This document shows positions 1 through 24,449 of a stretch of DNA of 32,311 nucleotides, piece by piece (the first letter of the stretch is position 1; the number at the start of each line of letters is the position of its first letter). This DNA comes from a virus. The stretch covers positions 1-32,311 of the IMG/VR virus record IMGVR_UViG_3300025030_000313. One strand, 5' to 3'. The notes below the pieces were generated by a model. It was not told the origin of the DNA and made no database searches. It saw only the letters and a list, made by a program, of their open reading frames with translations. A program made the translations under genes and the position numbers.

Positions 1-1
1 A

Positions 2-190
2 GCCTCTACCGTTGGCGACGCCTACGCCGGACACCCACCGATGGGAACAAGAGTGAGGTGCAAACCAACTGGCGGCGGAGCCATAAATTACGAAGGCCGC
101 TGGATACCCGCATGGAATAACATGGGCCGGGTTTTGCTGGATGACGGCCAGGTGAAGGTGTCTTCTACCTGCTATCTTGTTGTCATTTAA
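2..190 (+). CDS. C-terminal part of an unrecognised cassette protein (partial, 5' end outside window)
   Basis: The frame is open from the window edge to TAA at 188-190 and gives 62 residues. The peptide has a Gly-rich stretch (residues 23-27, around PTGGGA), a Trp-containing segment (GRWIPAWNN) and a beta-like, hydrophobic end (CYLVVI). No family is recognised. The stop codon lies inside the ATTTAAC core at 185-191, as in the neighbouring cassettes, which supports it as the real coding frame and as the last part of a cassette gene. The frame also has no internal stops and balanced composition. Function is unknown, and the start lies outside the window. Confidence 0.6.
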   Translation, partial: ASTVGDAYAGHPPMGTRVRCKPTGGGAINYEGRWIPAWNNMGRVLLDDGQVKVSSTCYLVVI

Positions 191-273
191 CGATAAAGCT
201 CAGTGGACGCCGCCACTGAAATAACAACAAAAACGGGTGCTTCCCGGCGTTCCACTGAAGCGCCTTGTTAAAT
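185..273 (+). other. attC recombination site 1
   Basis: The left inverse core ATTTAAC (185-191) and right core GTTAAAT (267-273) are exact complements and fit RYYYAAC/GTTRRRY. Inside them, AGCTCAGTGGA pairs with TCCACTGAAGC, and GGACGCCG pairs with CGGCGTTCC with one bulged base, as is normal for the folded bottom strand of attC. The unpaired centre is about 35 bases. The upstream gene's stop codon is inside the left core. Confidence 0.85.
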
Positions 274-290
274 GCGATTTTGGGTGCGAT

Positions 291-830
291 ATGACTTGCA
301 TAGTTGGCCTGGTTGAAAATGGAAAAGTTTACATTGGTGGGGACTCTGCCGGGGTTTCTGGGTTCGATTTGAGAATCCGTCAAGACGACAAGGTTTTTGC
401 TAAAAACGGAATGGTTTTTGGTTTTACCAGTTCGTTTAGAATGGGGCAAATACTGAGGTATAGTCTTTCTATCCCAGACCACGACCCAAGAACGGATGAC
501 TATGCCTATCTTTGCACTGATTTTGTTGACGCGCTGATCAAGTGTTTCAAAGAGAAAGAGTATGCCACAATAAAAAACAGCGAGGTGTCTGGAGGTATTT
601 TTCTGGTCGGCTATAAAGGGAACCTGTACCGGATAGAGAGCGACTTCCAGGTGGGCAAAGTAAGGCAAAAATATGATGCCTGCGGTTGTGGTGAGAACTA
701 CGCCCTTGGTGCATTGCGGTCGCTTGAGGAAGCAGGCAAAGAGCCGATTGAGATCGTAGAGCATGCCCTGTCTGTGGCGGAATACTTTTCTGCCGGGGTA
801 AGGGCACCCTTCACCGTAGTAAGCATTTAA
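291..830 (+). CDS. Proteasome-like Ntn hydrolase (cassette-borne)
   Basis: This 179-residue protein has the N-terminal nucleophile hydrolase fold signature. After removal of Met, Thr1 is the nucleophile; Asp17 lies in GGDSAG and Lys33 in DDKVF, exactly the spacing of the proteasome beta/HslV catalytic triad. A later GCGENYALGAL segment corresponds to the Gly-rich loop near position 129 of beta subunits, with Cys where Ser is usual. The family cleaves peptide or amide bonds; the substrate here is unknown. The open frame reaches back to a GTG at 237, but that lies in the attC1 loop and would bury the Thr, so ATG 291 is chosen although its ribosome binding site is weak. It is the sole gene of cassette 268-904. 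Similar stand-alone Ntn proteins occur in phages. It could be a self-processing enzyme rather than a protease. Confidence 0.85.
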   Translation: MTCIVGLVENGKVYIGGDSAGVSGFDLRIRQDDKVFAKNGMVFGFTSSFRMGQILRYSLSIPDHDPRTDDYAYLCTDFVDALIKCFKEKEYATIKNSEVSGGIFLVGYKGNLYRIESDFQVGKVRQKYDACGCGENYALGALRSLEEAGKEPIEIVEHALSVAEYFSAGVRAPFTVVSI

Positions 831-910
831 CAGTATTTTAACCGGGCCAGCTAAAAGCTGACCCGAAACTGACCGACGGCCCCTGGCTCCGGTTGAAAAT
901 TTGGTTATCT
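825..910 (+). other. attC recombination site 2
   Basis: The left core is ATTTAAC (825-831), overlapping the stop codon of the Ntn hydrolase gene. The right core is GTTATCT (904-910), which departs from GTTRRRY in its fifth and sixth bases. The inner stem is AACCGGGCCAG paired with CTGGCTCCGGTT (one extra base), and the outer arm AGTATTTT pairs with GAAAATTT. The variant right core is matched by the next cassette's own inverse core AGATAAC, which supports it as a genuine recombination junction. Confidence 0.8.
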
Positions 911-928
911 GGATTGGAGGAAGGAATT

Positions 929-1183
929 ATGATCGAACTAGGTCAAGAAGCACGTGACAAAGTGACAGGCTTTGAAGGCATTCTGACTGCACGTCATCAG
1001 TATATTACCGGATGTGACCAGTACTCTATTTGCCCGACTGGCATCGACAAGGAAAACAAACTAAAGGAGACCTACGCCTTTGACGAAGGCCGGATTGAGA
1101 TTACTGGCAAAGGGGTAACTGTGGCGGAGGTGCAAACTGAAAAGCGCGGCGGGCCACAACACCCCAGCACAAGTGTAAGATAA
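929..1183 (+). CDS. Small conserved phage-type protein (cassette-borne), function unknown
   Basis: This is an 84-residue protein. ATG 929 is chosen because a GGAGGAAGG ribosome binding site lies 6-10 bases upstream; the frame extends to TTG 893, which lies within attC2. The core resembles a small protein often seen in phages: a basic KVTGFEGI strand, a Cys-containing turn (GCDQYSICP), then a charged loop and FDEGRIEI. These look like short beta strands of a small SH3-like barrel, which is an inference from the pattern only. The last 25 residues are low-complexity and basic (TEKRGGPQHPS). It is the sole gene of cassette 905-1290 and its TAA sits in the next left core. No function is assigned. 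Confidence 0.75.
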   Translation: MIELGQEARDKVTGFEGILTARHQYITGCDQYSICPTGIDKENKLKETYAFDEGRIEITGKGVTVAEVQTEKRGGPQHPSTSVR

Positions 1184-1296
1184 CGCCAAGCTCACGGGAA
1201 GCAGGGGATAGAAGACATGCAACAAGCACCAGAAACACTTAACCCGCCACAAGCTCACACGCCGACCCTGCTTCCCGGTGAAGCGCCTGGTTGTGC
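1178..1296 (+). other. attC recombination site 3 (long loop)
   Basis: The left core AGATAAC (1178-1184) holds the upstream stop codon; the right core is GTTGTGC (1290-1296). The arms pair well: CCAAGCTCAC with GTGAAGCGCC (offset bases), then GGGAAGCAGGG with CCCTGCTTCCC, an 11-base perfect stem. The loop of about 55 bases is longer than in the other sites and contains an ATG (1217) with a GGGGA ahead of it, in frame with the next gene. Confidence 0.8.
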
Positions 1297-1732
1297 CGGT
1301 TTTGATGATATTGTTGCCGCCATGGACAAAATATCTGATGCCCTGGAACTGGAGTCCATCCACTGGATTCGCGGCAAGGCTGGCCCGAACTGGTGCTATG
1401 GTTGCGGGAAGGCCATGGCAAAACATTTGCGGCGTCGGGCGACACGCAAAGAGAAAAGTGAGTACATCCTGGATGGGGGGTATCCCGCCGGGGATGAGGA
1501 TGGATGCGCACACTGCGAAGGATGCGGCAAACTGCTGCACTACTCCCTGACAGATTGTGGGGTGGAAAATGAGTTGGGCCATTTTTTGGAACACTGGGAT
1601 CCGCAGGGCAACATTGAACCTGAAACAGCCTATGAACTGGCTCGTGTTTTTGAGTACGGGCAGCATGTTGACGAATTTTTCGATGCCCTTGGTAGGTTGG
1701 CCGGTATGGTCCGGCGACAGATTGAGGCATAA
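1217..1732 (+). CDS. Cys-rich zinc-ribbon-like protein (cassette-borne), function unknown
   Basis: This 171-residue protein has a probable zinc site from CxxC pairs (CYGCG near residue 58, then CAHCEGCGK near 98-106). An acidic DGGYPAGDEDG loop and a helical C-terminal half (ENELGHFLEHW, YELARVFEYG, FFDALGRLAGM) also stand out. The start is uncertain. ATG 1217 has a GGGGA 8 bases upstream but lies inside attC3, in DNA belonging to the previous cassette. The first ATG inside its own cassette (1291-1784) is 1322, which would give 136 residues and lacks a visible ribosome binding site. Using 1217 would place an attC-encoded leader on the protein. The TAA overlaps the left core of attC4. No family is assigned; the CxxC pairs suggest metal binding, not a specific activity. 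Confidence 0.65.
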   Translation: MQQAPETLNPPQAHTPTLLPGEAPGCAGFDDIVAAMDKISDALELESIHWIRGKAGPNWCYGCGKAMAKHLRRRATRKEKSEYILDGGYPAGDEDGCAHCEGCGKLLHYSLTDCGVENELGHFLEHWDPQGNIEPETAYELARVFEYGQHVDEFFDALGRLAGMVRRQIEA

Positions 1733-1790
1733 CGACCAAGCATAACCAGACCGCTGCTTTTGCGGTTCTGCGTTGATGCGCTTGTTGGGC
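1727..1790 (+). other. attC recombination site 4
   Basis: This is the cleanest and shortest site (64 bases). The left core is GCATAAC (1727-1733), with the upstream stop codon inside it, and the right core is GTTGGGC (1784-1790). The strand folds as AACGACCAAGCAT with ATGCGCTTGTT and AACCAGACCGC with GCGGTTCTGCGTT, with single unpaired bases on one side, and a short central loop. Its right half, CGTTGATGCGCTTGTT, recurs exactly at 6521-6536. Confidence 0.9.
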
Positions 1791-1827
1791 GATTTTGCCC
1801 GGAACTTAACTTTGAAAGGACGTAAAC

Positions 1828-2220
1828 ATGAAAGTATTTCTTGGTGGCACCTGCAATGAATCGAAGTGGCGCAATTTGATTATTCCACACCTTGCGGTTG
1901 ATTTCTTTAATCCGGTCGTTGCAGACTGGACTCCTGCCTGCATGGAAGAAGAGATCAGGCAGCGCGAGACATGCGATGTCGTTTTGTACACTATCACACC
2001 CAAAATGACGGGGACGTATTCTGTCGCTGAAGTCGTTGACGATAGCAACAAGCGCCCTCAGAAAACGGTTTTTATTTGTCTTAGAGAAGACGACGGGCTA
2101 CGTTTTGACGATGGGCAATGGAAATCTCTTGGCGCGGTAGCCCAGATGGTAGAACGCAACGGTGGTGCCGTGTTCTCCGATTTAAAGAGCGCAGCCCTGG
2201 ATATTAACGCCAGAGTATGA
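1828..2220 (+). CDS. Nucleoside 2-deoxyribosyltransferase-like protein (cassette-borne)
   Basis: This 130-residue protein starts with the FLGGTCNESKW strand-turn-helix typical of the nucleoside 2-deoxyribosyltransferase-like family. It continues with FNPVV, an EEEIRQRETCD segment, the strand VVLYTIT and the YSVAEVVDDSNKRP motif, whose Glu corresponds to the nucleophile region of the family. Classical members transfer deoxyribose between bases; many phage and bacterial relatives have unproven substrates and may act in NAD or nucleotide turnover. ATG 1828 follows GAAAGGA by 8 bases. The gene fills cassette 1785-2286. Length fits single-domain relatives. The fold assignment is fairly safe; the reaction is not. 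Confidence 0.8.
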   Translation: MKVFLGGTCNESKWRNLIIPHLAVDFFNPVVADWTPACMEEEIRQRETCDVVLYTITPKMTGTYSVAEVVDDSNKRPQKTVFICLREDDGLRFDDGQWKSLGAVAQMVERNGGAVFSDLKSAALDINARV

Positions 2221-2224
2221 CGCG

Positions 2225-2292
2225 GCCCAACAAGGGATTAACCAGAAAAAAAACTGGATAACTCCACTGATTGCGGATATATACGGTTAGCA
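2225..2292 (+). other. attC-like site 5 (right half weak)
   Basis: The left core GCCCAAC (2225-2231) fits RYYYAAC and is the exact complement of the cassette's left-end core GTTGGGC at 1784-1790. ATTAACCAG and CTGGATAAC form the inner stem around an A-rich loop. A right core could be GTTAGCA (2286-2292), but the arm pairing outside the inner stem is poor, so the site may be decayed or its right end misplaced. Confidence 0.55.
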
Positions 2293-2595: not shown

Positions 2596-2889
2596 ATGGA
2601 AATGCTAAATATCCACGATTGGGACGAATGGCAATCGTACCGGAAAGACAGAGGGCAGCCGCCGTGGATAAAAATACACAGGGAGATAATGCGAAACTAT
2701 AAGTGGGTTTCGCTATCTGACATGGAGCGGGGGCAACTCGTATCGTGTTGGTTGTTGGCTGCTGACCACAACGGAAGGATACCAGTGTGTCCAGATTTGT
2801 TACAAAAATTATGTTTCATGTCTGACAGGCCAAATGTTAATAAATTCATAGAGTTAGGTTTTTTTGACGCCAACGTGACGCCAACGTGA
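2596..2889 (+). CDS. Replisome-organiser-like protein, N-terminal domain only
   Basis: The 97 residues match the N-terminal domain of phage replication proteins: a WDEWQSYRKDRG lead, PPWIKIHREIM, then a helical segment (SLSDMERGQLVSCWLLAADHNGRIP) and a second helical pair ending in FIELGFFDANV. In relatives this winged-helix-like domain is followed by a charged linker and a C-terminal part. Here translation ends in the 11-bp repeats, which carry TGA in every frame. Downstream bases (2937-3040) still encode charged, linker-like peptides in more than one frame, consistent with a lost tail. ATG 2596 is chosen (ATG 2602 also possible) where the conserved region begins; AAAGGA is about 13 bases upstream. 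It lies ahead of the helicase and primase genes on the same strand. Confidence 0.72.
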   Translation: MEMLNIHDWDEWQSYRKDRGQPPWIKIHREIMRNYKWVSLSDMERGQLVSCWLLAADHNGRIPVCPDLLQKLCFMSDRPNVNKFIELGFFDANVTPT

Positions 2890-2936
2890 CGCCAACGTGA
2901 CGCCAACGTGACGCCAACGTGACGCCAACGTGACGC
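2866..2936 (+). repeat. Six perfect 11-bp tandem repeats (GACGCCAACGT), possible iterons
   Basis: Units start at 2866, 2877, 2888, 2899, 2910 and 2921, followed by a partial GACGC at 2932. All six are identical. Eleven bases is about one helical turn, so the units face one side of the DNA. They overlap the 3' end of the replisome-organiser-like gene, where phage origins with iterons often lie, and are followed by A-rich DNA. Eleven is not a multiple of three, so three or more copies place a TGA in every frame. Confidence 0.9.
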
Positions 2937-3038
2937 ACCAGAGTAGATAAGAGGCAGAGAAGAGAAGAATAAAAGCTATGCGAAGCGAGCGCCGGGCACG
3001 GACATTTTCCCACGACCGGAAAAGATAAAAGATTGCTT
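2937..3038 (+). other. Purine-rich segment after the 11-bp repeats; possible lost C-terminal coding or origin unwinding region
   Basis: No intact gene is seen. The + strand is purine-rich (AGATAAGAGGCAGAGAAG, GGAAAAGATAAAAG). One frame reads a charged linker-like peptide (EAEKRRIKAMRSERR) and another reads GTDIFPRPEKIKDCLPG, resembling the continuation of replisome organisers, but stops and frame shifts break both. It could equally be the easily melted part of an origin beside the iterons. Confidence 0.35.
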
Positions 3039-3199
3039 GCCAGGAAAAAGATTATAAGAGGCCAAGGTTAAAAATCCTTTCTTCTGGCGAGCAAAAGTTG
3101 TAAAGTGCGCGTTCAAAAGCAGGGGATAGGTTATCGAGACCGAACGCGAGATTGAGCCCTCGTTTCCCCTTGCTCCTTTCAGCTCAAAACCTTTTGCTC
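3039..3199 (+). ncRNA. Candidate structured RNA or folded DNA element upstream of the HNH gene
   Basis: Four helices can be drawn. Stem I runs from GCCAGGAAAAAGATT (3039-3053) to its partner ending in CTGGC (3084-3088), with small bulges. It abuts a three-way junction: outer stem GAGCAAAAG/CTTTTGCTC (3089-3097 with 3191-3199), arm CGCGTTC/GAACGCG (3108-3114 with 3142-3148) and arm TTGAGC/GCTCAA (3152-3157 with 3182-3187). The first arm's loop holds a further GATA-ggt-TATC. The outer stem ends one base before the AGGAGG of the HNH gene. No known riboswitch or group I intron core is recognised. Confidence 0.5.
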
Positions 3200-3205
3200 A
3201 GGAGG
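3200..3205 (+). promoter_or_regulatory. Strong ribosome binding site of the HNH gene (AGGAGG)
   Basis: AGGAGG lies 8 bases before ATG 3214 and fixes that start over the in-frame TTG at 3211. It touches the 3' end of the folded element (3039-3199), so folding or unfolding of that element could affect its access. Confidence 0.7.
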
Positions 3206-3213
3206 TATCTTTG

Positions 3214-3729
3214 ATGGACCAATTACCCGAAGTTTGGAAAGTAGTACCTGGATTTGAGAATTACAGCGTTTCGAATTGCGGCAGGGTACGGCGTGACGTG
3301 AAGACGTGGTCTCATGAGCCTAAAATCCTAAAGCCGTTCACTATCTCTGGCGGGTATCAGCAGATTCATTTATTTTGCGGAGGGGTCAGAAAAGCGTTTC
3401 GGGTCCATCGTCTGGTTTTGGCACTGTTTGACAGGCCGCCACAAGAGGGTGAGGAAGGGAACCACAAGGATGGGGACAAGAGCAAGAACGGAATATCGAA
3501 CCTGGAATGGGTTTTCCCTAACGGCAACATGAAGCACGCCTATGATTCTGGGCTGCATAGCAGGCAGGTGGGTGACAAAAGCCACTTTGCAAAATTGTCG
3601 TTGCAGCAGGTGCGGGAAATTAGAGATAAGATGAGCGTCGGGGTGTTGACATGCATCTCAATAGCCAACGAATACGGAGTGTGTCGGTCAACTGTTTACC
3701 GCATCCGTGACGGGAAGAGCTGGTGTTGA
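3214..3729 (+). CDS. NUMOD4/HNH homing endonuclease
   Basis: This 171-residue protein has three parts in order. An N-terminal NUMOD4 DNA-binding motif (VWKVVPGFENYSVSNCGRVR) is followed by an HNH_3 nuclease core (VHRLVLALF, then NHKDGDKSKN and NLEW, with the metal-binding His/Asn/His pattern) near residues 65-110. The C-terminal helix-turn-helix (LSLQQVREIRDKM, IANEYGVCRSTVYRI) would also bind DNA. Such enzymes cut at or near their homologous empty site and spread by repair. It appears free-standing: no gene is obviously split around it. It sits between the truncated replisome-organiser-like gene and the helicase gene, whose ATG follows its stop by one base. Its arrival could explain the disorder just upstream. 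Confidence 0.92.
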   Translation: MDQLPEVWKVVPGFENYSVSNCGRVRRDVKTWSHEPKILKPFTISGGYQQIHLFCGGVRKAFRVHRLVLALFDRPPQEGEEGNHKDGDKSKNGISNLEWVFPNGNMKHAYDSGLHSRQVGDKSHFAKLSLQQVREIRDKMSVGVLTCISIANEYGVCRSTVYRIRDGKSWC

Positions 3730-3730
3730 T

Positions 3731-5269
3731 ATGGAGCTAAGAGCGCATCAAGTTGAAATAATCGAGAAGGCCCGAAAATCTATTTCTGACGGGACCAAGC
3801 GGCCCTTGCTGTTCGCGTGTTGTTCTTTCGGAAAAACGATTGTGGCGGGCGAAATAGCGCGGTTGGCTGTGGCAAAGAACAACAAAGTTCTGTTTATCGT
3901 TCACCGCCGATTGTTGGCATATCAAACGAAAGAAAAATTTGACGCCTACGGGTTGAGCAGCTCCATAATCATGGCCGGGGAGAAAACAGACTTTGGGTGC
4001 CCGGTGATGATAACCACGGTGCAGACATACCGGAACCGGCTGAAGCTCAAGCACCCATCAGCAAATATTTTTTTCCATGATGCCTCGGTAATTTTTGTCG
4101 ATGAATGCCATTTGGCGATTGGCCCAACGTTCAAAGAGGTTTACGACTATTACCAAGGCAAGGTGATAATCGGACTCACGGGCAGCCCGGCGCGTGGTGA
4201 TCAGCGTGGGCTCGGGGAAGTGTTCGAGTCAATCATCTCATCGACCAGCATTAAAGAGTTGACCGATCAAGGATACCTGGCCCCGGTTAGATATTTTGCG
4301 GCCCCTGCCCCAGATCTTACCAAAGTCAAAATGACCGCTGGAGATTACAACAAGAAAGAACTTGAAAAGGAGATGAACAAAACGCAACTGGTCGGGGATG
4401 TGGTCGAGAACTGGCAGCGGAGCGGGGAAGGGCGGCAAACGATAGTCTTTGCTTCTGGCGTGAAACATTCAATTCATCTGCGAGATGAGTTCATAAAAAT
4501 TGGGGTGGCGGCAGAACACCTGGACGCCAACTCTCCACACGATGAGAGAATGGAAGTATTGCGGCAATTCAGGCTTGGAAATATCACCGTAGTCTGTAAC
4601 TGCCAGTTATTTACCGAAGGGTATGACGCCGACTTCGTGTCATGCATAGCGATTGCCAGGCCGACAAAGAGCCTTCCGCTATGGATTCAGATGGCCGGGA
4701 GAGGGCAAAGGATATGTGACGGAAAAGTTGATTGCATCCTGTTGGATTTCGGGGGGAACATTGAGCGCCACGGATTCCTCACTGACGATATTGAGTGGTC
4801 TTTAGATGGCAAAGAAAGGGCCTGGAAAAAGAAAGAACCCGAGCCAAAAGAGCCAAAAACGGTAAAATGTACCGTATGCCATGCCGTTTTCGAGGGTGTC
4901 GACCGGTGCCCAGATTGCAATTCACCGGTGCAAAAGTTTGGCAAAAAAATCGAAGTGGTTGCCGCGGACCTGGAAGAGGTGGGCGGCAAGAGAAAAATGG
5001 ATGCCGTAGAACGTCGGCGCTTTCTGGGGATGCTGCTCCATGTCCAGCGGGCCAAGGGGTACAAGCAGGGATGGGTTAGCTGGAAGTACAAAGAAAAAAC
5101 AGGTGTTTTTCCGAAAAGCCTTGATCTTGTGGCACCAATCCCGCCGGATGAACAGTTTTCGAAATACCTGCAACACTTGAATATCAAGGCCGCAAAGTCA
5201 AAGCAAAAGCAGAATAGCCAGTTCCAGCCCGGAATGTCGCAAATCGACAGATATAAGGCGTATTTATGA
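3731..5269 (+). CDS. SF2 DEAD/DEAH-type helicase with C-terminal zinc ribbon
   Basis: This 512-residue protein carries superfamily 2 helicase motifs. Motif I is CCSFGKT at residues 30-36, the CSFGKT variant of the Walker A loop. Motif II is DECH at 124-127, motif III GLTGSPAR at 148-155, and motif VI QMAGRGQR at 320-327. A zinc ribbon with Cys 380, 383, 393 and 396 follows, and then a basic helical tail. Such phage helicases open DNA for replication or recombination; this one would couple ATP hydrolysis to strand separation in the cytoplasm. ATG 3731 is chosen because it begins the conserved LRAHQ motif Q region; the frame extends back to 3707 inside the HNH gene. The stop overlaps the primase start by four bases, so the two are probably translated together. 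Confidence 0.92.
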   Translation: MELRAHQVEIIEKARKSISDGTKRPLLFACCSFGKTIVAGEIARLAVAKNNKVLFIVHRRLLAYQTKEKFDAYGLSSSIIMAGEKTDFGCPVMITTVQTYRNRLKLKHPSANIFFHDASVIFVDECHLAIGPTFKEVYDYYQGKVIIGLTGSPARGDQRGLGEVFESIISSTSIKELTDQGYLAPVRYFAAPAPDLTKVKMTAGDYNKKELEKEMNKTQLVGDVVENWQRSGEGRQTIVFASGVKHSIHLRDEFIKIGVAAEHLDANSPHDERMEVLRQFRLGNITVVCNCQLFTEGYDADFVSCIAIARPTKSLPLWIQMAGRGQRICDGKVDCILLDFGGNIERHGFLTDDIEWSLDGKERAWKKKEPEPKEPKTVKCTVCHAVFEGVDRCPDCNSPVQKFGKKIEVVAADLEEVGGKRKMDAVERRRFLGMLLHVQRAKGYKQGWVSWKYKEKTGVFPKSLDLVAPIPPDEQFSKYLQHLNIKAAKSKQKQNSQFQPGMSQIDRYKAYL

Positions 5270-6177
5270 GGGCTGAAGATGCGATAGGCCGGTGGCCGGG
5301 CATTTTTGAAAGTCTTGCGATCACCGTAGGAGATGGGCGGCATATCGCATGTCCGATATGCGGGAAGAAATCGTTTAGATTTGACGACAAAGACGGGCGC
5401 GGGAGTTGGATTTGTACGCACGGCAGCGGCGATGGCTGGGCGCTTGTCCAGGCGGTTCTTGGCTGCGACTTTAAAGGCTCCCTGGCACAAGTCGGCCCGA
5501 TTATTGGCACTGTAACCCCTACGGCGGTATGCAAAGAAGAATTTGCAAGCCCGGAAGTACTGCGGAAGATGTTTTTGGAATCGGTCAAGGCCAGCAAAGA
5601 TAACCTCGTCGGGGCGTACCTAAAGCACCGTGGGCTTACCGTGGTCCCCGAAATTTTGAGGTATCACAAGGGGTGCTGGGAAAGCGAGACGAAACAGAAT
5701 CACCCGGCAATGCTGGCCGTTGTCACCCTGCCAGACGGACAGGCCAGCACGATGCACCGGACGTATTTGTCCAGAAACGGGGAGAAATTGAAAGGAGTTG
5801 ATTGCCCCAAAAAGATGATGCCGGGGGTGAAGAAATCAACCGGCGGCGCTATCCGGCTTTTCCCCCCAACTGCGGACGGAGTAATCGGCCTAGCTGAAGG
5901 GATTGAGACGGCGATTGCCTGCTATGAGCACCACGGGATACCGACATGGGCGGCGGTGTCTGCCGGGATGATGGCGGCGTTTATCCCGCCGGTTGGGGTT
6001 AAAAAGGTGTGGATTTTTGGGGACAACGACTCTCATAAATCATTTGCCGGGGAAGCGGCGGCATACTCGTTGGCCAAGCGGCTGGTGGAGCAAAAAAAGA
6101 TGCCGGTTGAGGTTGCTATTCCTGGCAGGCCAGGGGACTGGCTGGATGAGTTGGAAATGCGTAAATGTTTGAGGTGA
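5266..6177 (+). CDS. Zinc-finger/Toprim primase
   Basis: This 303-residue DNA primase-like protein resembles the P4/T7 group without a fused helicase. The N-terminal zinc finger has CPIC at 29-32 and, after FRFDDKDGRGSW, CTH at 50-52, then SGDG. The fourth ligand is probably His 52 where relatives usually have Cys. A Toprim domain follows, with the catalytic Glu in AEGIETA (211-216) and the metal-binding GDND at 252-255. It would lay down RNA primers at the phage fork opened by the neighbouring helicase. The start overlaps the helicase stop (ATGA). The gene ends close to the usual length for stand-alone primases of this type. No DNA polymerase is in the window, so the phage may use the host's. 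Confidence 0.9.
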   Translation: MRAEDAIGRWPGIFESLAITVGDGRHIACPICGKKSFRFDDKDGRGSWICTHGSGDGWALVQAVLGCDFKGSLAQVGPIIGTVTPTAVCKEEFASPEVLRKMFLESVKASKDNLVGAYLKHRGLTVVPEILRYHKGCWESETKQNHPAMLAVVTLPDGQASTMHRTYLSRNGEKLKGVDCPKKMMPGVKKSTGGAIRLFPPTADGVIGLAEGIETAIACYEHHGIPTWAAVSAGMMAAFIPPVGVKKVWIFGDNDSHKSFAGEAAAYSLAKRLVEQKKMPVEVAIPGRPGDWLDELEMRKCLR

Positions 6178-6293
6178 TTGGTGGACCCGTCTCGACGAGG
6201 TACGGCAGGATGGATAGCGACCGTGATGCGCCCGTTTCGAAAATAGCTAAAGGCCTCTGGACTGCAAGGCGTTACCGTGCTGCTGGGGTTTGA
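6165..6293 (+). CDS. Possible 42-residue small protein overlapping the primase end
   Basis: The frame starts at ATG 6165, overlaps the last 13 bases of the primase gene and ends at TGA 6291-6293. The peptide is basic and contains RYGRMDSDRDAPVSK, which looks like a natural protein beginning, but no ribosome binding site of note is seen. It may be the surviving 5' end of a gene whose remainder was deleted when the PAPS-reductase-like remnant was formed; the two frames overlap at 6247-6293. Confidence 0.3.
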   Translation: MFEVIGGPVSTRYGRMDSDRDAPVSKIAKGLWTARRYRAAGV

Positions 6294-6459
6294 CGCCGGG
6301 GAACCTGGCCGGAAGTCGCGGGCGCTGAAATACGCCAGCGGATACGACAAGGTTTTCCCTTTGATCGAGTGGCAGTGGAGCCGTGAACGGTGCATTGAGG
6401 CCATTGATCGCGCTGGCCTGCCACGGCCAGGGAAGTTTCGGCAGAGGAACGCTGCCTAA
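6247..6459 (+). pseudogene. Truncated PAPS-reductase-like remnant
   Basis: The frame 6247-6459 (a GTG at 6277 could serve as start) encodes GVTVLLGFDAGEPGRK followed by FPLIEWQWSRERCIEAI and GLPRPGK. That is the C-terminal half of the phage PAPS-reductase/adenine nucleotide alpha hydrolase-like family, where relatives read FPLIEWGWSR...GLP.P.K and then a CFFCP cysteine motif. Here the N-terminal nucleotide-binding loop is missing and the sequence ends before any CFFCP. It stops right where the attC-like segment (6455-6540) begins, so the 3' end may have been lost on insertion of the minus-strand genes. Not expected to be active. Confidence 0.6.
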
Positions 6460-6540
6460 ATTAAACCGTCGCCGCCGGGGGTGATGGCTTAAAAATCCGG
6501 CGCGAAGGCCTTGATGTCCACGTTGATGCGCTTGTTAGAT
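6455..6540 (-). other. attC-like site facing left (half-site plus decayed partner)
   Basis: Read on the minus strand, ATCTAACAAGCGCATCAACG (6540-6521) has the inverse core ATCTAAC and the adjacent box typical of attC; on the plus strand the last 16 bases before the core variable part equal those of attC4. The minus-strand gene's TAA lies inside this core, as in the left-end cassettes. The partner core near 6460-6466 (GTTTAAT on the minus strand) and its arms pair poorly; only CGCCGG/CCGGCG pairs well. It may be a decayed site. Confidence 0.4.
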
Positions 6541-6723
6541 TTTACGGCACCGGCCAAGGGCAGCGGCCCGAATAAAAGAGGACACATCTTCTCCGGCCTG
6601 CTCTGCCCCGGCCTTCACCGTCTCAATTTCTGCCTCAGTCCAGCGGATTTTTATGGCTACCCGCCGGGCGTTTTCTTTTAGAGAGCCAAGGGGCTTCCCT
6701 CGGCTCTTTTTGGTTTCCGTCAT
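6535..6723 (-). CDS. Ribbon-helix-helix DNA-binding protein
   Basis: This 62-residue basic protein on the minus strand has an N-terminal Lys/Arg-rich stretch (KKSRGKPLG). The probable RHH strand is RVAIKIRWT, and the helices are EAEIETVKAGAEQAG and DVSSFIRAAALG; the spacing fits RHH antitoxins, MobC-type proteins and phage repressors. It is likely to bind an operator as a dimer of dimers. Its start overlaps the stop of the 173-residue gene (6720-7241) by four bases, so they are co-translated. Its stop codon lies in the ATCTAAC core of the attC-like site. It could be an antitoxin or an autoregulator for the pair; sequence alone does not decide. Confidence 0.7.
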   Translation of the reverse strand: MTETKKSRGKPLGSLKENARRVAIKIRWTEAEIETVKAGAEQAGEDVSSFIRAAALGRCRKI

Positions 6724-10950: not shown

Positions 10951-11543
10951 TGAAGGCCTTGCCTACTGTATTTATTTGGTTGATGTTTTGTGGGCTCGCA
11001 CAGGCAGGGAATGTGATTACGGCTTTTCATGTTGCTGGCGGCACTTCGGTAGGAACAACCACCACCCCAGTTGGGGCTAGGAGCATAGACAACACGACCT
11101 GGACCTATGCCTACAAGGTAAACGGCACTCCTGGGGCCAACGGAACATTGTCTGAGCTATGCATATACGTTCAGAGCGCCAGCGGTGCGGACCAGTTTAA
11201 ATTGTCCTTGTACGCACATGATGCAGGAAACAACATGCCAGGGGCTGTTATTGCCAACGCCACGTCAGTCGAGGATACGATGACGGCGTCCATGGTGCTT
11301 CACTGCATAGCGATCGATTCGGCTACTCCGGCATCAATCGTGTCTGGGACTCAATATTGGGTAGCCTTGGAGCAATTGGCGGGCTACAACTCAGTCGGAT
11401 CGTCTGGGTATGTGGGTGCTGGGGCCTGGGACACATCAATTAAAGTGCAGGCCGGCTCATACTCTTGGCCTGATTACGCAGGAACGGAGGACGCAGGTGA
11501 CACAGATTACGAAGTTACTGCTTATTTTAAGTATCTCCCTTAG
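10950..11543 (+). CDS. Secreted beta-sandwich-like protein with Sec signal peptide
   Basis: This 197-residue protein opens with MKALPTVFIWLMFCGLAQA, a signal peptide with an AQA site. The mature protein is Gly/Thr/Ala-rich and beta-like, with YKVNGTPGANGTLSELCIYV, FKLSLYAHDAG and TQYWVALEQ. That pattern resembles jelly-roll or lectin-like domains of fibre proteins and of bacterial choice-of-anchor proteins. Two cysteines (ELCIYV, LHCIAI) could pair. ATG 10950 overlaps the previous stop. The 3' end overlaps the start of the pectate-lyase-like gene by 47 bases. No function is assigned; carbohydrate binding would fit both fold and neighbour. Confidence 0.65.
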   Translation: MKALPTVFIWLMFCGLAQAGNVITAFHVAGGTSVGTTTTPVGARSIDNTTWTYAYKVNGTPGANGTLSELCIYVQSASGADQFKLSLYAHDAGNNMPGAVIANATSVEDTMTASMVLHCIAIDSATPASIVSGTQYWVALEQLAGYNSVGSSGYVGAGAWDTSIKVQAGSYSWPDYAGTEDAGDTDYEVTAYFKYLP

Positions 11544-13290
11544 TTTCTGTTCTACGGCATACTGCTTTCCAGCTTTTCCGGGGGCTGAAGGGATGGGGGC
11601 GGCGGCGGTCGGCGGTCGAGGGGGCTCGGTCTGCATAGTGGACACCTTGTCTGATTCTGCTGGAGACGGGCAAACATTCCGCGAGTGCGTGGAATCCTCG
11701 GGGGCGCGGTACGTGACGTTTGAAGTCAGTGGGATCATCGATCTTGTAACTAATCTGACCTTCAGCGACCCTTACATCACCATTGCCGGGCAAACTTCCC
11801 CCGGCGGCGTAATGGTCACCGGCCGGCCAACTTACGTCAACACCCATGATGTGATCATCCAGCACATGAGATGGCGGACGGGCCAGCATAGATTGGTGGA
11901 TAGTAATGATGCAGATGCCTATGGAGACGCCTTTGCTGTTATTGGCGATCAGTACAATATCTCAGTCCCAGCGTATAACATCATAATCGATCATTGCTCA
12001 TTTGGATTTGGAGTTGATGAGGTTGTCAACGTCGCCTACAATGTCCAAGACACCACGTTCTCATGGTGCAAAATAACCCACGGAATTACATCTTCGATGC
12101 ACCCAGAATCTCCACATAGTATGGGGTTCTTTGTATGGGGAAGCGTCGGCGGCGGGGTAGCTGCAAATCCAGCAGCCACGGTATCTTTGCACCATTCATT
12201 CTTAGGGTTTGCGGAAAACAGAATGCCAGAGAACAGCTATAATTCGTTCTTGGACAGTGTAAACAATGTGGTTTATTACTGGAATACCAGCGTTACCCAT
12301 CAGGTGGAGCGGGTGAATGCCGACAATCATTCCTACGCCAATATCATCGGGTCCTATCGGAAAATAAATACTTCAGTTTCAACCGCCGGCACACGATCAG
12401 CTTTTGTGCTTGAGTACGCATCACTGGCCGAAGAGTCGATATATATGACCGGCGTTCTTGATGGTTACAGAGATTCACAGGTTGACCCCCAATGGTCGGC
12501 ACAAGAGTATTGGCATGTGGATCAGTCGCTGTCAACTGACTGGCAGAAAGCCACTCCATGGGCCACAACTGGATATTCAGGAGATGGTATTCCGGTTGTT
12601 GCATCAACGATGGATGCGACTTACGCCTCTTCTGTAGTAGCTGACTCCGGGGCGACAAAATGCCAAAGCGACGCGACCTGTAGTGATTCTGTAGACTCGG
12701 GGTCCGTTTCTCATTATGAGGCGGGGACCGGGGCATATGTGACAGGGGCGGAGGTGGATTCGTTGGACGATACAATATGGCCGGAATTCCTTACCCCAGC
12801 AGCTCCAGCCGATACTGATAACGACGGGATGTCTGACGCATGGGAGACGTCAACTTTTGGTGACTTAGATCAGACAGCGACCGGGGATCAAGATGTTGAT
12901 GGATATGATAACCTGGAGGAGTACATCCATTTTTTGGGGAATTATATCATCCCGGACACCACAGCACCAGTCACCACGGCCTCACCGGCAGCCGGAACCT
13001 ATCACGCAACTCAATCAGTGGCCCTATCCTGCACCGACGCCGTAGGATGCACCGAAACCCTCTACTGTGCCGGGGCCGACTGTACTCCAGACACCACTTA
13101 TACCGCGCCGGTCAGCACTGCGACCACCACGACCTATTGCTACGCCTCAACCGATGCCGCTGCCAATCCCGAAACGAAAACCTGCGGAACGTGGACGATT
13201 GAAACAGCGACGCTGAACCGGGTTCCGCAAATTGGCGGCAGATCGCTCATTATTGGCGGCCACACCGTGGCAATTGAAGCGAGTGAGTGA
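11497..13290 (+). CDS. Pectate-lyase-like secreted polysaccharide-degrading protein
   Basis: This 597-residue protein has four parts. A signal peptide (TQITKLLLILSISLSFCSTA, residues 2-21) leads into a right-handed beta-helix of the pectate lyase type. It opens FPAFPGAEGMGAAAVGGRGG and has GIIDL, PYITIAGQTSPGG, VIIQHMRWR and NIIIDHCSFGFGVDE, all hallmark PL1-like motifs. A calcium-binding-type TDNDGMSDAWE linker follows, then a C-terminal chitobiase-like domain (PAAGTYHATQSVALSC). Mature cysteines number twelve, consistent with disulfides. It would cleave or bind an acidic surface polysaccharide. GTG 11497 is chosen over the frame start at 11410: GGAGG lies six bases upstream and the signal peptide begins there. 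A bacterial-style secreted enzyme here, between TerL and portal, is unusual. Confidence 0.85.
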   Translation: MTQITKLLLILSISLSFCSTAYCFPAFPGAEGMGAAAVGGRGGSVCIVDTLSDSAGDGQTFRECVESSGARYVTFEVSGIIDLVTNLTFSDPYITIAGQTSPGGVMVTGRPTYVNTHDVIIQHMRWRTGQHRLVDSNDADAYGDAFAVIGDQYNISVPAYNIIIDHCSFGFGVDEVVNVAYNVQDTTFSWCKITHGITSSMHPESPHSMGFFVWGSVGGGVAANPAATVSLHHSFLGFAENRMPENSYNSFLDSVNNVVYYWNTSVTHQVERVNADNHSYANIIGSYRKINTSVSTAGTRSAFVLEYASLAEESIYMTGVLDGYRDSQVDPQWSAQEYWHVDQSLSTDWQKATPWATTGYSGDGIPVVASTMDATYASSVVADSGATKCQSDATCSDSVDSGSVSHYEAGTGAYVTGAEVDSLDDTIWPEFLTPAAPADTDNDGMSDAWETSTFGDLDQTATGDQDVDGYDNLEEYIHFLGNYIIPDTTAPVTTASPAAGTYHATQSVALSCTDAVGCTETLYCAGADCTPDTTYTAPVSTATTTTYCYASTDAAANPETKTCGTWTIETATLNRVPQIGGRSLIIGGHTVAIEASE

Positions 13291-22219: not shown

Positions 22220-23409
22220 GCCTGCTTAGACGGATATTCTTGCTGGATGTCATCGGCAACATCATCAACCCAGCGACTGAGGACAAGCAGGACACGATAA
22301 TCTCCACCCTTCAAGCACGAAAATTTGCCGACACTGGCAACTCTACTACTACTCCCCTTGCCGCCGGGGCGACATTTACGGGGGACTGGATTGATACAGA
22401 TGGATATGTCCAGGCCATTGCCGTGGTGATTACAAGCCACAATGCTGCCGCTGATGGATTAAGATTTGAACTCAGTGACGACGGGGTGAATGTCCTCCAC
22501 GCCCATGTGTTTACACCCACGGCCAACGCTCCGAATGGGCATCATTACCCGTCCACGTTGGAATCCCAATATTTTCGGGTAAAATATACCAATGGAGGGA
22601 CTCTCCAAACGACATTCGTGGTCTCTACGCACCTGCTGAAGTCTATGGCCGAGGAGGGCCATGTCCACCCCGTAAACTATGTCATTGATGATGACCACCC
22701 GGTGGCTATTACAAGGGCAATCCTCACAGGTAAAACCGCCGCCGGGGCTTATTCAAATGTGGCATTGACAAACGGCTCAAACCTGAAAGTTTCGCTAGAG
22801 GAATTAGAAGCCGCGATCAGCGTCAACAGTAATACTCAACTCAGGACGACGTTATTTGACACCACCGGAAATGAGCCGGCGATGATCGAACAAGGTGGAG
22901 CCTATGCGGTAGCCGTAAGCCAACGCCCGGTGGCAACATTTTCAGTGCAACTGAGCATAGAAAATCTTGGCGCATCAGCGGACTATATTTTGGTTGATCT
23001 ATCCGACACGGTGAATTTTCCCCACACCTTGACCGGCCTTATCCAAGTGTCAAGCATCCACCTGGACCTCAACCCCGACACCGCCTTTCGCGGCGATATC
23101 CAATTAGGATACCTGAAAAACGTGGACGCCACGGACGGCGATTTTGTCCTCTTGAAAGAGTGGCACCAGGACCTTGCGGCTGACCCAACCCACAGCGGAG
23201 AGCATTTTTTCCCAAATGAGTTGATCTGCTCTGATGCTTATCACCTGGGGGCGGTGACGGCAAACGATGTAGCATTTCAGACTGACGTTGCCCTGACAAG
23301 TCCGGCCGGCACGTCGGTGTCAGGAACTGGAGATTTGGCATTGCGGGTAATCCGCATCGCTGGCAATATTGACATAGGTATAACCCTCCAATATAGGACC
23401 GAGACATGA
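22216..23409 (+). CDS. Phage structural protein in the gp14 position, unknown function
   Basis: This 397-residue protein starts MSLLRRIFLLDVIGN and then has INPATEDKQDTIISTL, a phrase common near the N-terminus of phage fibre and head-neck structural proteins. The body is beta-rich and alternates strands with Gly/Asp turns (DGYVQAIAVVITSHNA, SQYFRVKYTNGGTLQTTFVVS, TFSVQLSIENLGASADYILVDL). There is no signal peptide. ATG 22216 is chosen over TTG 22210: GGAG lies eight bases upstream and the ATGA overlap is used here. Its stop overlaps the radical SAM start. If it is that enzyme's substrate or partner, this adjacency would explain it, but nothing proves it. Confidence 0.65.
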   Translation: MSLLRRIFLLDVIGNIINPATEDKQDTIISTLQARKFADTGNSTTTPLAAGATFTGDWIDTDGYVQAIAVVITSHNAAADGLRFELSDDGVNVLHAHVFTPTANAPNGHHYPSTLESQYFRVKYTNGGTLQTTFVVSTHLLKSMAEEGHVHPVNYVIDDDHPVAITRAILTGKTAAGAYSNVALTNGSNLKVSLEELEAAISVNSNTQLRTTLFDTTGNEPAMIEQGGAYAVAVSQRPVATFSVQLSIENLGASADYILVDLSDTVNFPHTLTGLIQVSSIHLDLNPDTAFRGDIQLGYLKNVDATDGDFVLLKEWHQDLAADPTHSGEHFFPNELICSDAYHLGAVTANDVAFQTDVALTSPAGTSVSGTGDLALRVIRIAGNIDIGITLQYRTET

Positions 23410-24449
23410 TACACACGATTTCTTTGTGCCCGACATGCTACCGTAAGATCGGAGCTTTTATCTTCAAGCGCGGGAAAGAGGCATGGATGAAAAAGACCTG
23501 CCCGGAACACGGCGATTTTGAATCGATGGTTGAGCGGTCGTGGAATCACTTTTCGGCTTTCTACCGATACGGGTCGAACGGACGGAACAACTCCATCATT
23601 GTGCACATCGAGAACAAGTGCAACATGAAGTGCTCGTGGTGCTATTACGGAGGAGACAAGATCCATGGCCTGCCCTTCCTGAACCAGCTTCTATATGAGC
23701 CATACCGAAAGATGCAGGCACAACCATTTGGCCTTATGTTTTCCGGCGGCGAGCCGACCAAAAACCCAGATTATCACGAAATAGTCGAAACGGCATTCTT
23801 GACCGGCTGGCGTCCGTCGACCATCACCAACATGATCAACCTTGCAGATGATGAGTTCTTCCAGAAGACTCTAAACCCGGCATGGGTGGACAATGCCGGA
23901 AATTATGCCTTTGCCTGCTCCATGCAACATCCCAAAAACTATTCTCCCGAGATCCTCGCCCAGAAGCTCCAAGCCCTGGAAAACATCAAGAGCAAGAATC
24001 TCATTGCCGGCTGCGCGATGTTCTCAATTCAAAGCCTTGATGAGTTGGGTTGGATTCATGATTTCTATGATGAATACAAGAAGCATTTCTCCATGCTCAG
24101 AATCCGCACCATGTTTAATAATTGGCGTCATGAAGGAGAGCAGGCCCTCTTTCAATCTGACCTCTACGAGGCCTTCATGGACGAATTCGGTGAGCAATAC
24201 AGCCCGGTGCAGTGCTCGGAAATTGAGCAGTCTACCAGCTACGGGATGTACCTCCAGACCTGCGAAAGTCGGCATATTTCATTGATGAGTGCGCCGACTG
24301 TGGGGAATATCGATTACCACCTGGCTAGCAGGCCCGTTCTTATGCTCGGAAAAGACCTGCGGTGCTACCCGGTGCCAATCTGCCAGATAATCAACGAAGG
24401 GATCGAAAAAGGCTGGAAAGATGGTTTCCAGATAAGGGAGGTGGCGTAA
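23406..24449 (+). CDS. Radical SAM protein with N-terminal Cys motif (MJ0619/Tes-like arrangement)
   Basis: The 347 residues show a CxxxCxxC cluster motif at Cys72, 76 and 79 (NKCNMKCSWCYYGG), which binds the 4Fe-4S cluster that cleaves S-adenosylmethionine, and an FSGGEPT motif near 110-116. The N-terminus has CPTC (8-11) and CPEHG (32-36), as in the MJ0619-like group that includes archaeal lipid cross-linking enzymes. Five later cysteines, two in DLRCYPVPIC, may bind an auxiliary cluster. It could modify a virion protein, a peptide, a lipid or tRNA; the substrate cannot be read from sequence. ATG 23406 overlaps the previous stop and the next gene starts on its stop (TAATG), so it is co-translated with structural genes. 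This location is unusual. Confidence 0.88.
   Translation: MIHTISLCPTCYRKIGAFIFKRGKEAWMKKTCPEHGDFESMVERSWNHFSAFYRYGSNGRNNSIIVHIENKCNMKCSWCYYGGDKIHGLPFLNQLLYEPYRKMQAQPFGLMFSGGEPTKNPDYHEIVETAFLTGWRPSTITNMINLADDEFFQKTLNPAWVDNAGNYAFACSMQHPKNYSPEILAQKLQALENIKSKNLIAGCAMFSIQSLDELGWIHDFYDEYKKHFSMLRIRTMFNNWRHEGEQALFQSDLYEAFMDEFGEQYSPVQCSEIEQSTSYGMYLQTCESRHISLMSAPTVGNIDYHLASRPVLMLGKDLRCYPVPICQIINEGIEKGWKDGFQIREVA

Follow-up and report, generated by a model that had tools for sequence, protein, structure and literature searches.

The left 2.2 kb of the window is probably a CALIN, an integrase-less cluster of at least two attC sites in one orientation, placed in the early operon of a P22-like phage, with cassette genes inverted relative to their attC sites and an integron integrase (IntI) acting in trans. 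The window is the whole stretch of DNA analysed and represents the full IMG/VR record IMGVR_UViG_3300025030_000313 (32,311 bases, linear). The window phage is best read from its sequence as an integrase-less member of a cassette-exchange pool among phages of integron-rich Desulfobulbales, an order of sulfur-cycling bacteria. In the proposed mechanism, each cassette would consist of one small phage-useful gene and one attC, and IntI would insert the cassettes in a fixed attC direction, here leftwards. The inverted genes would then be read rightwards with the phage operon. The most likely suppliers of IntI would be phages with the integrase by the terminase, either co-infecting or already resident in the cell, or an integron-rich Desulfobulbales host.

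Phage backbone and organization of the array

The features of the window are listed in Table 1. PHROG matches revealed the P22-type order of portal (phrog_156), coat (phrog_283) and gp10-type head closure (phrog_578), and these proteins, along with the terminase, bear out the assignment to a P22-like phage made in the earlier note. A tailspike-like protein is also encoded. The portal, coat, gp10-type head closure and the N-terminal part of the tailspike are shared with phage P22 and its relatives, from which the window differs in the cassette array of its early region and in a portal with at most 56% identity to that of a named phage. The best named-phage portals are those of Vibrio phage 1.275.O and Pseudomonas phage AH02 (54-56% identity), while identity to the P22 portal is 38%.

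Table 1. Coordinates of the cassette array, the decayed integron piece and the phage genes in the window
Feature	Position	Strand	Evidence
Cassette gene 1, partial (contig end), 62 aa	2-190	+	ORF, stop within attC A; no Pfam/PHROG match
attC A, 89 nt	185-273	-	score 21.0; R2 37.8 bits; hairpin z -2.7; near-identical attC on contig L062 (phage)
Cassette gene 2, Ntn hydrolase, HslV-like phage type	291-830	+	phrog_1040 E 1e-22
attC B, 86 nt	825-910	-	score 18.5; R2 14.3 bits
Cassette gene 3, small phage protein	929-1183	+	phrog_16275 E 2e-27
attC C, 119 nt	1178-1296	-	score 18.5
Cassette gene 4, cysteine-rich protein	1321-1732	+	ORF; no family; strand supported by neighbours only
attC D, 64 nt	1727-1790	-	score 13.5; R2 13.4 bits
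Cassette gene 5, nucleoside 2-deoxyribosyltransferase-like	1828-2220	+	PF15891 E 7e-11; phage homologs
Single core box GTTGGGC (minus strand), likely right array boundary	2225-2231	-	sequence
Phage early genes beside array: replication protein, HNH endonuclease, helicase, primase	2596-6177	+	PHROG/Pfam
PAPS-reductase-like cassette gene fragment with stop, remnant	6226-6435	+	90-92% aa identity to integrase-proximal gene of L059/L091
Single core box (GTTAGAT, plus strand) after CGCTT, second attC remnant	6534-6540	-	sequence
Small gene, 62 aa, likely former cassette gene	6535-6723	-	88% identical to IntI-adjacent gene of prophage L144
P22-like structural block	8012-31216	+	PHROGs
Gene positions in the block: terminase, portal, scaffold, coat, gp10, tailspike	8012, 13301, 15512, 16443, 20400, 28904		

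The recognised cassette genes are of phage types as had been claimed; three of them match phrog_1040, phrog_16275 and PF15891. Homologs of cassette gene 3 are found in Rhodobacter, Pseudomonas and Shewanella phages. The ORF of cassette gene 4 opens at 1217 inside attC C, and 1321 is the likelier start. A homolog of the Ntn hydrolase with 87% identity was found in the AT-rich phage contig L173 with no attC around it; judged by these surroundings, the gene is an ordinary phage gene in that contig and a cassette in the window.

The Rfam scan of the window gave no match, and distant BLAST searches, run on named phages with the array and on plasmids with sites A and D, gave no informative match. 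A scan of viral contigs with the helicase found no relative. Immediately to the right of the array, a perfect inverted repeat of 22 bases is present (2460-2481 and 2541-2562), and GACGCCAACGT units are repeated in tandem at 2873-2935, at the end of the replication-protein ORF. A large ORF with the look of a secreted pectate-lyase-like repeat protein occupies an unusual place in the gap between terminase and portal (11410-13290). The tail/ejection block contains a protein of 347 aa (23406-24449) with a CxxxCxxC motif and a radical SAM-like look, which had no PHROG match.

Structure and scoring of the attC sites

Reference attCs from class 1 cassettes, V. anguillarum, Shewanella M16-3 and phage TJE1 were aligned and their arms compared. 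Sites A-D show the attC hallmarks, namely R'' and R' boxes, an imperfect L''/L' stem and an unpaired base on one arm. Read on the minus strand, they are composed of an AAC-containing R'' box, a spacer of 6-7 bases, a stem and a GTT-containing R' box. The unpaired base is at position 16 of the first arm in all four, mostly with a second one at 20-24. The four sites lie within 1.6 kb and all are on the minus strand, which is the clustering in one orientation expected of a CALIN. attC D and phage contig L062 share CTTGTTGGGCGATTTTGCCC, located at the right end of the former and the left end of the latter.

The sites were scored by an orientation-aware structural scorer which requires the attC plan in one direction. 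A-D obtained their scores (Table 1) on the minus strand only, and those of A, B and C were the highest anywhere in the 32 kb. Known attCs scored 14.5-20.5 with the same scorer. Among 100 versions of the window shuffled by dinucleotides, sites scoring at least 15 arose at a rate of 0.01 per 32 kb, and none reached 17. The score of D taken alone is within chance (about 0.1-0.5 per window), and this site is called from its position and the covariance model. A naive arm-pairing score did not separate D from chance, and results improved once the unpaired base was fixed.

The covariance-model check proposed in the earlier note gave a graded outcome. The first model (R1), trained on class 1, Vibrio, Shewanella and TJE1 sites, found none of A-D in the window, and it did find sites in the phage contigs L004 and G003 described below. 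As R1 missed the window sites, a second model (R2) was built from 30 sites of other loci, with the near-identical L062 site excluded; part of this training set was chosen by the structural scorer and it contained no window sites. Over the whole 32 kb, R2 matched only A clearly (37.8 bits, E 3e-6) and B and D weakly (14.3 bits, E 0.42; 13.4 bits, E 0.65), all on the minus strand. Site C was reached by neither model. Four of the five attC-like sites first noticed are retained. The fifth, at about 2225-2290, was rejected as a full attC; it has one box, GCCCAAC (2225-2231), and a short hairpin, and its score of 9.0 is inside the noise.

Direction of cassette genes relative to attC

The window genes which match families (HslV-like Ntn hydrolase, phrog_16275 and PF15891) are on the plus strand and the attCs on the minus strand, and the cassette genes are therefore inverted relative to attC. 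In a usual CALIN the gene runs along its attC, and such a layout had been implied for this array; every supported window gene runs against it. In known arrays, the gene was found along attC in 20 of 23 intervals and against it in 3. Among phage and prophage contigs, all 15 cassette genes supported by a family or homolog, from 8 contigs, run against attC (Fisher p 5e-8 versus the known arrays, indicative only as the genes are non-independent events). The 15 genes were picked for this support, the direction of smaller ORFs being ambiguous, and the list replaced direction calls from the longest ORF, which were misled by antisense ORFs in L004 and L165. L144, first counted as chromosomal, turned out to lie in a prophage in which the genes run against attC. 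The small gene at 6535-6723 departs from the inverted direction, as it shares the strand with its residual box.

Integrase insertion carries the gene and its attC together. From this feature of integron biology, the relative direction of the two would be set when the cassette is born and not when it is inserted. We propose that genes opposite to attC would be read with the phage operon, so that an integron promoter would be unneeded. In several inverted cassettes, the attC supplies both GGAGG and the ATG with which the following gene starts (GGAGGGATTTGTTATG), a fit, as far as the sequence tells, to expression from a phage transcript.

Turnover of the array in P22-like relatives

A portal scan found 34 viral contigs, the closest being L004 and the 41.5 kb record G003, whose portals are 85-86% identical to that of the window. 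If the genome is as long as G003, the window is short of about 8-9 kb. The attCs of L004 and G003 are also opposite in strand to the phage genes, and R1, which is independent of the window, gave them 29.4, 24.5 and 22.4 bits. Their arrays share their flanking ORFs, MDACMSQEEK... and an HNH-like protein, and differ in the genes in between, one of which encodes a phage YunG-like protein. As the content differs between conserved flanks in close relatives, the array is a site where genes turn over. The relatives also have, on the minus strand close to their HNH gene, long repeat ORFs rich in alanine (AAARAAA/AAWAAA; L040 11208-11519 and L004 2648-3172).

Integron integrases in phage operons

The earlier note proposed to look to the left of the array for an attI and an integrase, which would complete an integron. 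None was seen within the 32 kb window when the ORF list was inspected by eye; the contig is cut at base 1 and the left flank of the array lies off it. TIGR02249 likewise found no integrase in G003 or in the other P22-like relatives. A search with an 18-base attC motif led to the phage contigs L062 and L059. Matches in L060 and L064 were dropped as they lie inside coding genes. L062 has a single attC, nearly identical to site A, and L059 has seven attCs together with an integron integrase ORF (TIGR02249 381.9 bits, cut-off 265). The attC type of L062, L004 and G003 is also carried by this integrase-encoding phage and, at 89% over 83 nt, by prophages of Desulfobulbales.

Four viral records, G023, G025, G026 and G028, were above the TIGR02249 cut-off, and in two of them IntI adjoins phage genes (G025, contig L066; G026, contig L067). 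Close relatives of the L059 integrase occur in varied gene contexts in other viral contigs; in L067 the gene overlaps a NinB-like ORF (named by eye). A second group of six contigs (L176-L181) has the integrase before the terminase, with upstream attCs on the opposite strand in five of them. In L066 and L179 there is an overlap of 4 nt between IntI and the terminase, and in L177, L178 and L180 the two genes are directly adjacent. From these positions, the integrase is a phage gene in line with the phage operon. This position beside shared cassettes suggests that phages run gene-swapping integrons of their own.

The phage contigs G026 and G027 (left ends L082 and L086, right ends L067 and L068) share an attC at their start (40-127) and stop within the integrase, which looks like an assembly break at a variable array. 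Genes for DUF5131 proteins (phage Gp37/Gp68-like) in L067, L059 and L180 were found both as cassettes and as ordinary genes.

A further link to the pool is found behind the early genes of the window. The segment 6226-6723 can be recognised by its sequence as a second, decayed integron piece inside the window phage (Table 1). No full attC was found at the box of 6534-6540. The PAPS-reductase-like gene of this piece is also a cassette in L177 (94%).

Related prophages in Desulfobulbales

The closest integrase in the genome collection (76%) is encoded by prophage L091 of a Desulfobulbaceae MAG, where the gene order is DnaB, recombinase, PAPS-reductase-like, IntI, HNH, terminase, portal and coat. 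Relatives of the phage integrase were found in 109 of 194 Desulfobulbales genomes (E 1e-50), and attCs resembling the phage ones also occur in Desulfobulbales genomes. For the L062-type attC, both of the best-matching sites are prophage-borne. L164 has a terminase, IntI, four attCs, a DNA methyltransferase and Lar, while L165 has IntI and an array between terminase and portal. L091, L164, L165 and L144 are all prophages in Desulfobulbales genomes with the same layout, and in L164, L165 and L144 the genes again run against attC. The window portal had no match in the 194 genomes, so that the shared Desulfobulbales host is an inferred one. The uptake of cassettes by host integrase action, as put forward in the earlier note, is possible given these 109 genomes, but the phages which share attCs and cassettes encode their own IntI.

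Comparison with known systems and alternative explanations

The novelty first supposed for cassette clusters in phages does not hold. Seventeen attC clusters and a few integrons have been reported in phages, including integrase-less clusters in virulent phages, with attC activity demonstrated with IntI1 in E. coli (Qi et al. 2023, PMC9892861). As phage attC clusters were already published, the window array is not a new kind; the earlier claim that integron-type cassettes are joined to a P22-like phage is itself supported. The array resembles the CALINs of TJE1, PH101 and P12002L in being an integrase-less attC cluster in a phage genome with phage-useful cassettes, which are methyltransferases there (PMC9892861). 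In those phages attC proved active with IntI1; genes run along attC in TJE1 and against it in the window. The window phage differs from the CALIN phages of Qi et al. in being P22-like and in having attC families and cassette genes common to IntI-encoding phages. The integrons of the temperate phages V. anguillarum p16 and Shewanella M16-3 likewise combine IntI and attC in a phage genome (PMC9892861). They are captured host-type integron pieces with genes along attC in most intervals, unlike the phages found here with IntI in line with the terminase and inverted cassette genes. Sedentary chromosomal integrons are alike in attC structure, in one gene per cassette and in attCs pointing away from intI, and they differ in gene direction versus attC, in the phage operon setting and in the integron promoter, which would be unneeded here.

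Three points are new here. First, the cassettes of close relatives differ while the flanks are conserved. Second, attC families and cassette genes are common to phage contigs and Desulfobulbales prophages with a phage-encoded IntI by the terminase. Third, the supported cassette genes are opposite to attC throughout and follow the direction of the phage operon. In the open-access journal literature, no publication was found on integron integrases within phage operons or on cassettes with inverted genes.

The best-surviving alternative is a passive pick-up, in which illegitimate recombination linked part of a host chromosomal integron to the phage, a route suggested by Qi et al. 2023 (PMC9892861), and no active exchange takes place. 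Desulfobulbales are rich in integrons with similar attCs and no integrase was seen in the window, and both would suit this origin. It is nevertheless unlikely, as ordinary arrays have genes along attC and the phage arrays reverse this direction, the payloads are phage genes, close relatives differ in content at one place and phages themselves carry IntI. An assembly chimera, in which the cassette array of a bacterium or of another phage is misjoined to the window phage, is considerably less probable. The array does sit at the contig end, and integrons also coincide with breaks in further contigs from these phages (G026 and G027), but L004, G003, L062, L059, L177 and L180 independently join the same attC families to phage genes, and integron remnants are also present inside the phage at 6226-6723.

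It is very improbable that the hairpins represent intergenic terminators of an ordinary kind or repeats due to chance. In single-strand folding against shuffles, A and B stand out (z -2.7 and -2.2), while C and D are not clearly better; the folding of C and the low covariance-model scores of B and D would fit this reading, and the paired core boxes, the unpaired base at position 16, scores not reached in any of 100 shuffles and the 37.8 bits of A argue against it. Least credible of all is that the minus-strand frames are the true genes of ordinary cassettes and the plus-strand ORFs their shadows, as the long antisense ORFs that exist in the array (193 and 201 aa) have no family match, while the plus-strand ORFs match Pfam/PHROG and their reading is conserved in homologs from other phages.

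Phage mosaicism is usually ascribed to homologous or illegitimate recombination. Taking the array of the window as an inverted-cassette CALIN served by an IntI in trans, we lean slightly towards a wider interpretation, in which Desulfobulbales phages run their own integrons, cassettes are born with the gene pointing away from attC, and unrelated phages, the window phage included, trade genes through this pool. If true, site-specific swapping of single-gene cassettes by an integrase placed in the phage operon would be a dedicated route of exchange. Its cargo would be counter-defence and accessory genes, such as methyltransferases, Lar-type restriction alleviation, PAPS-reductase-like proteins and Ntn hydrolases. 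The inverted gene direction would provide a testable prediction of expression and a handle for finding such cassettes in viral catalogues. The pool would also form a route between bacterial integrons and virulent phages, open in both ways.
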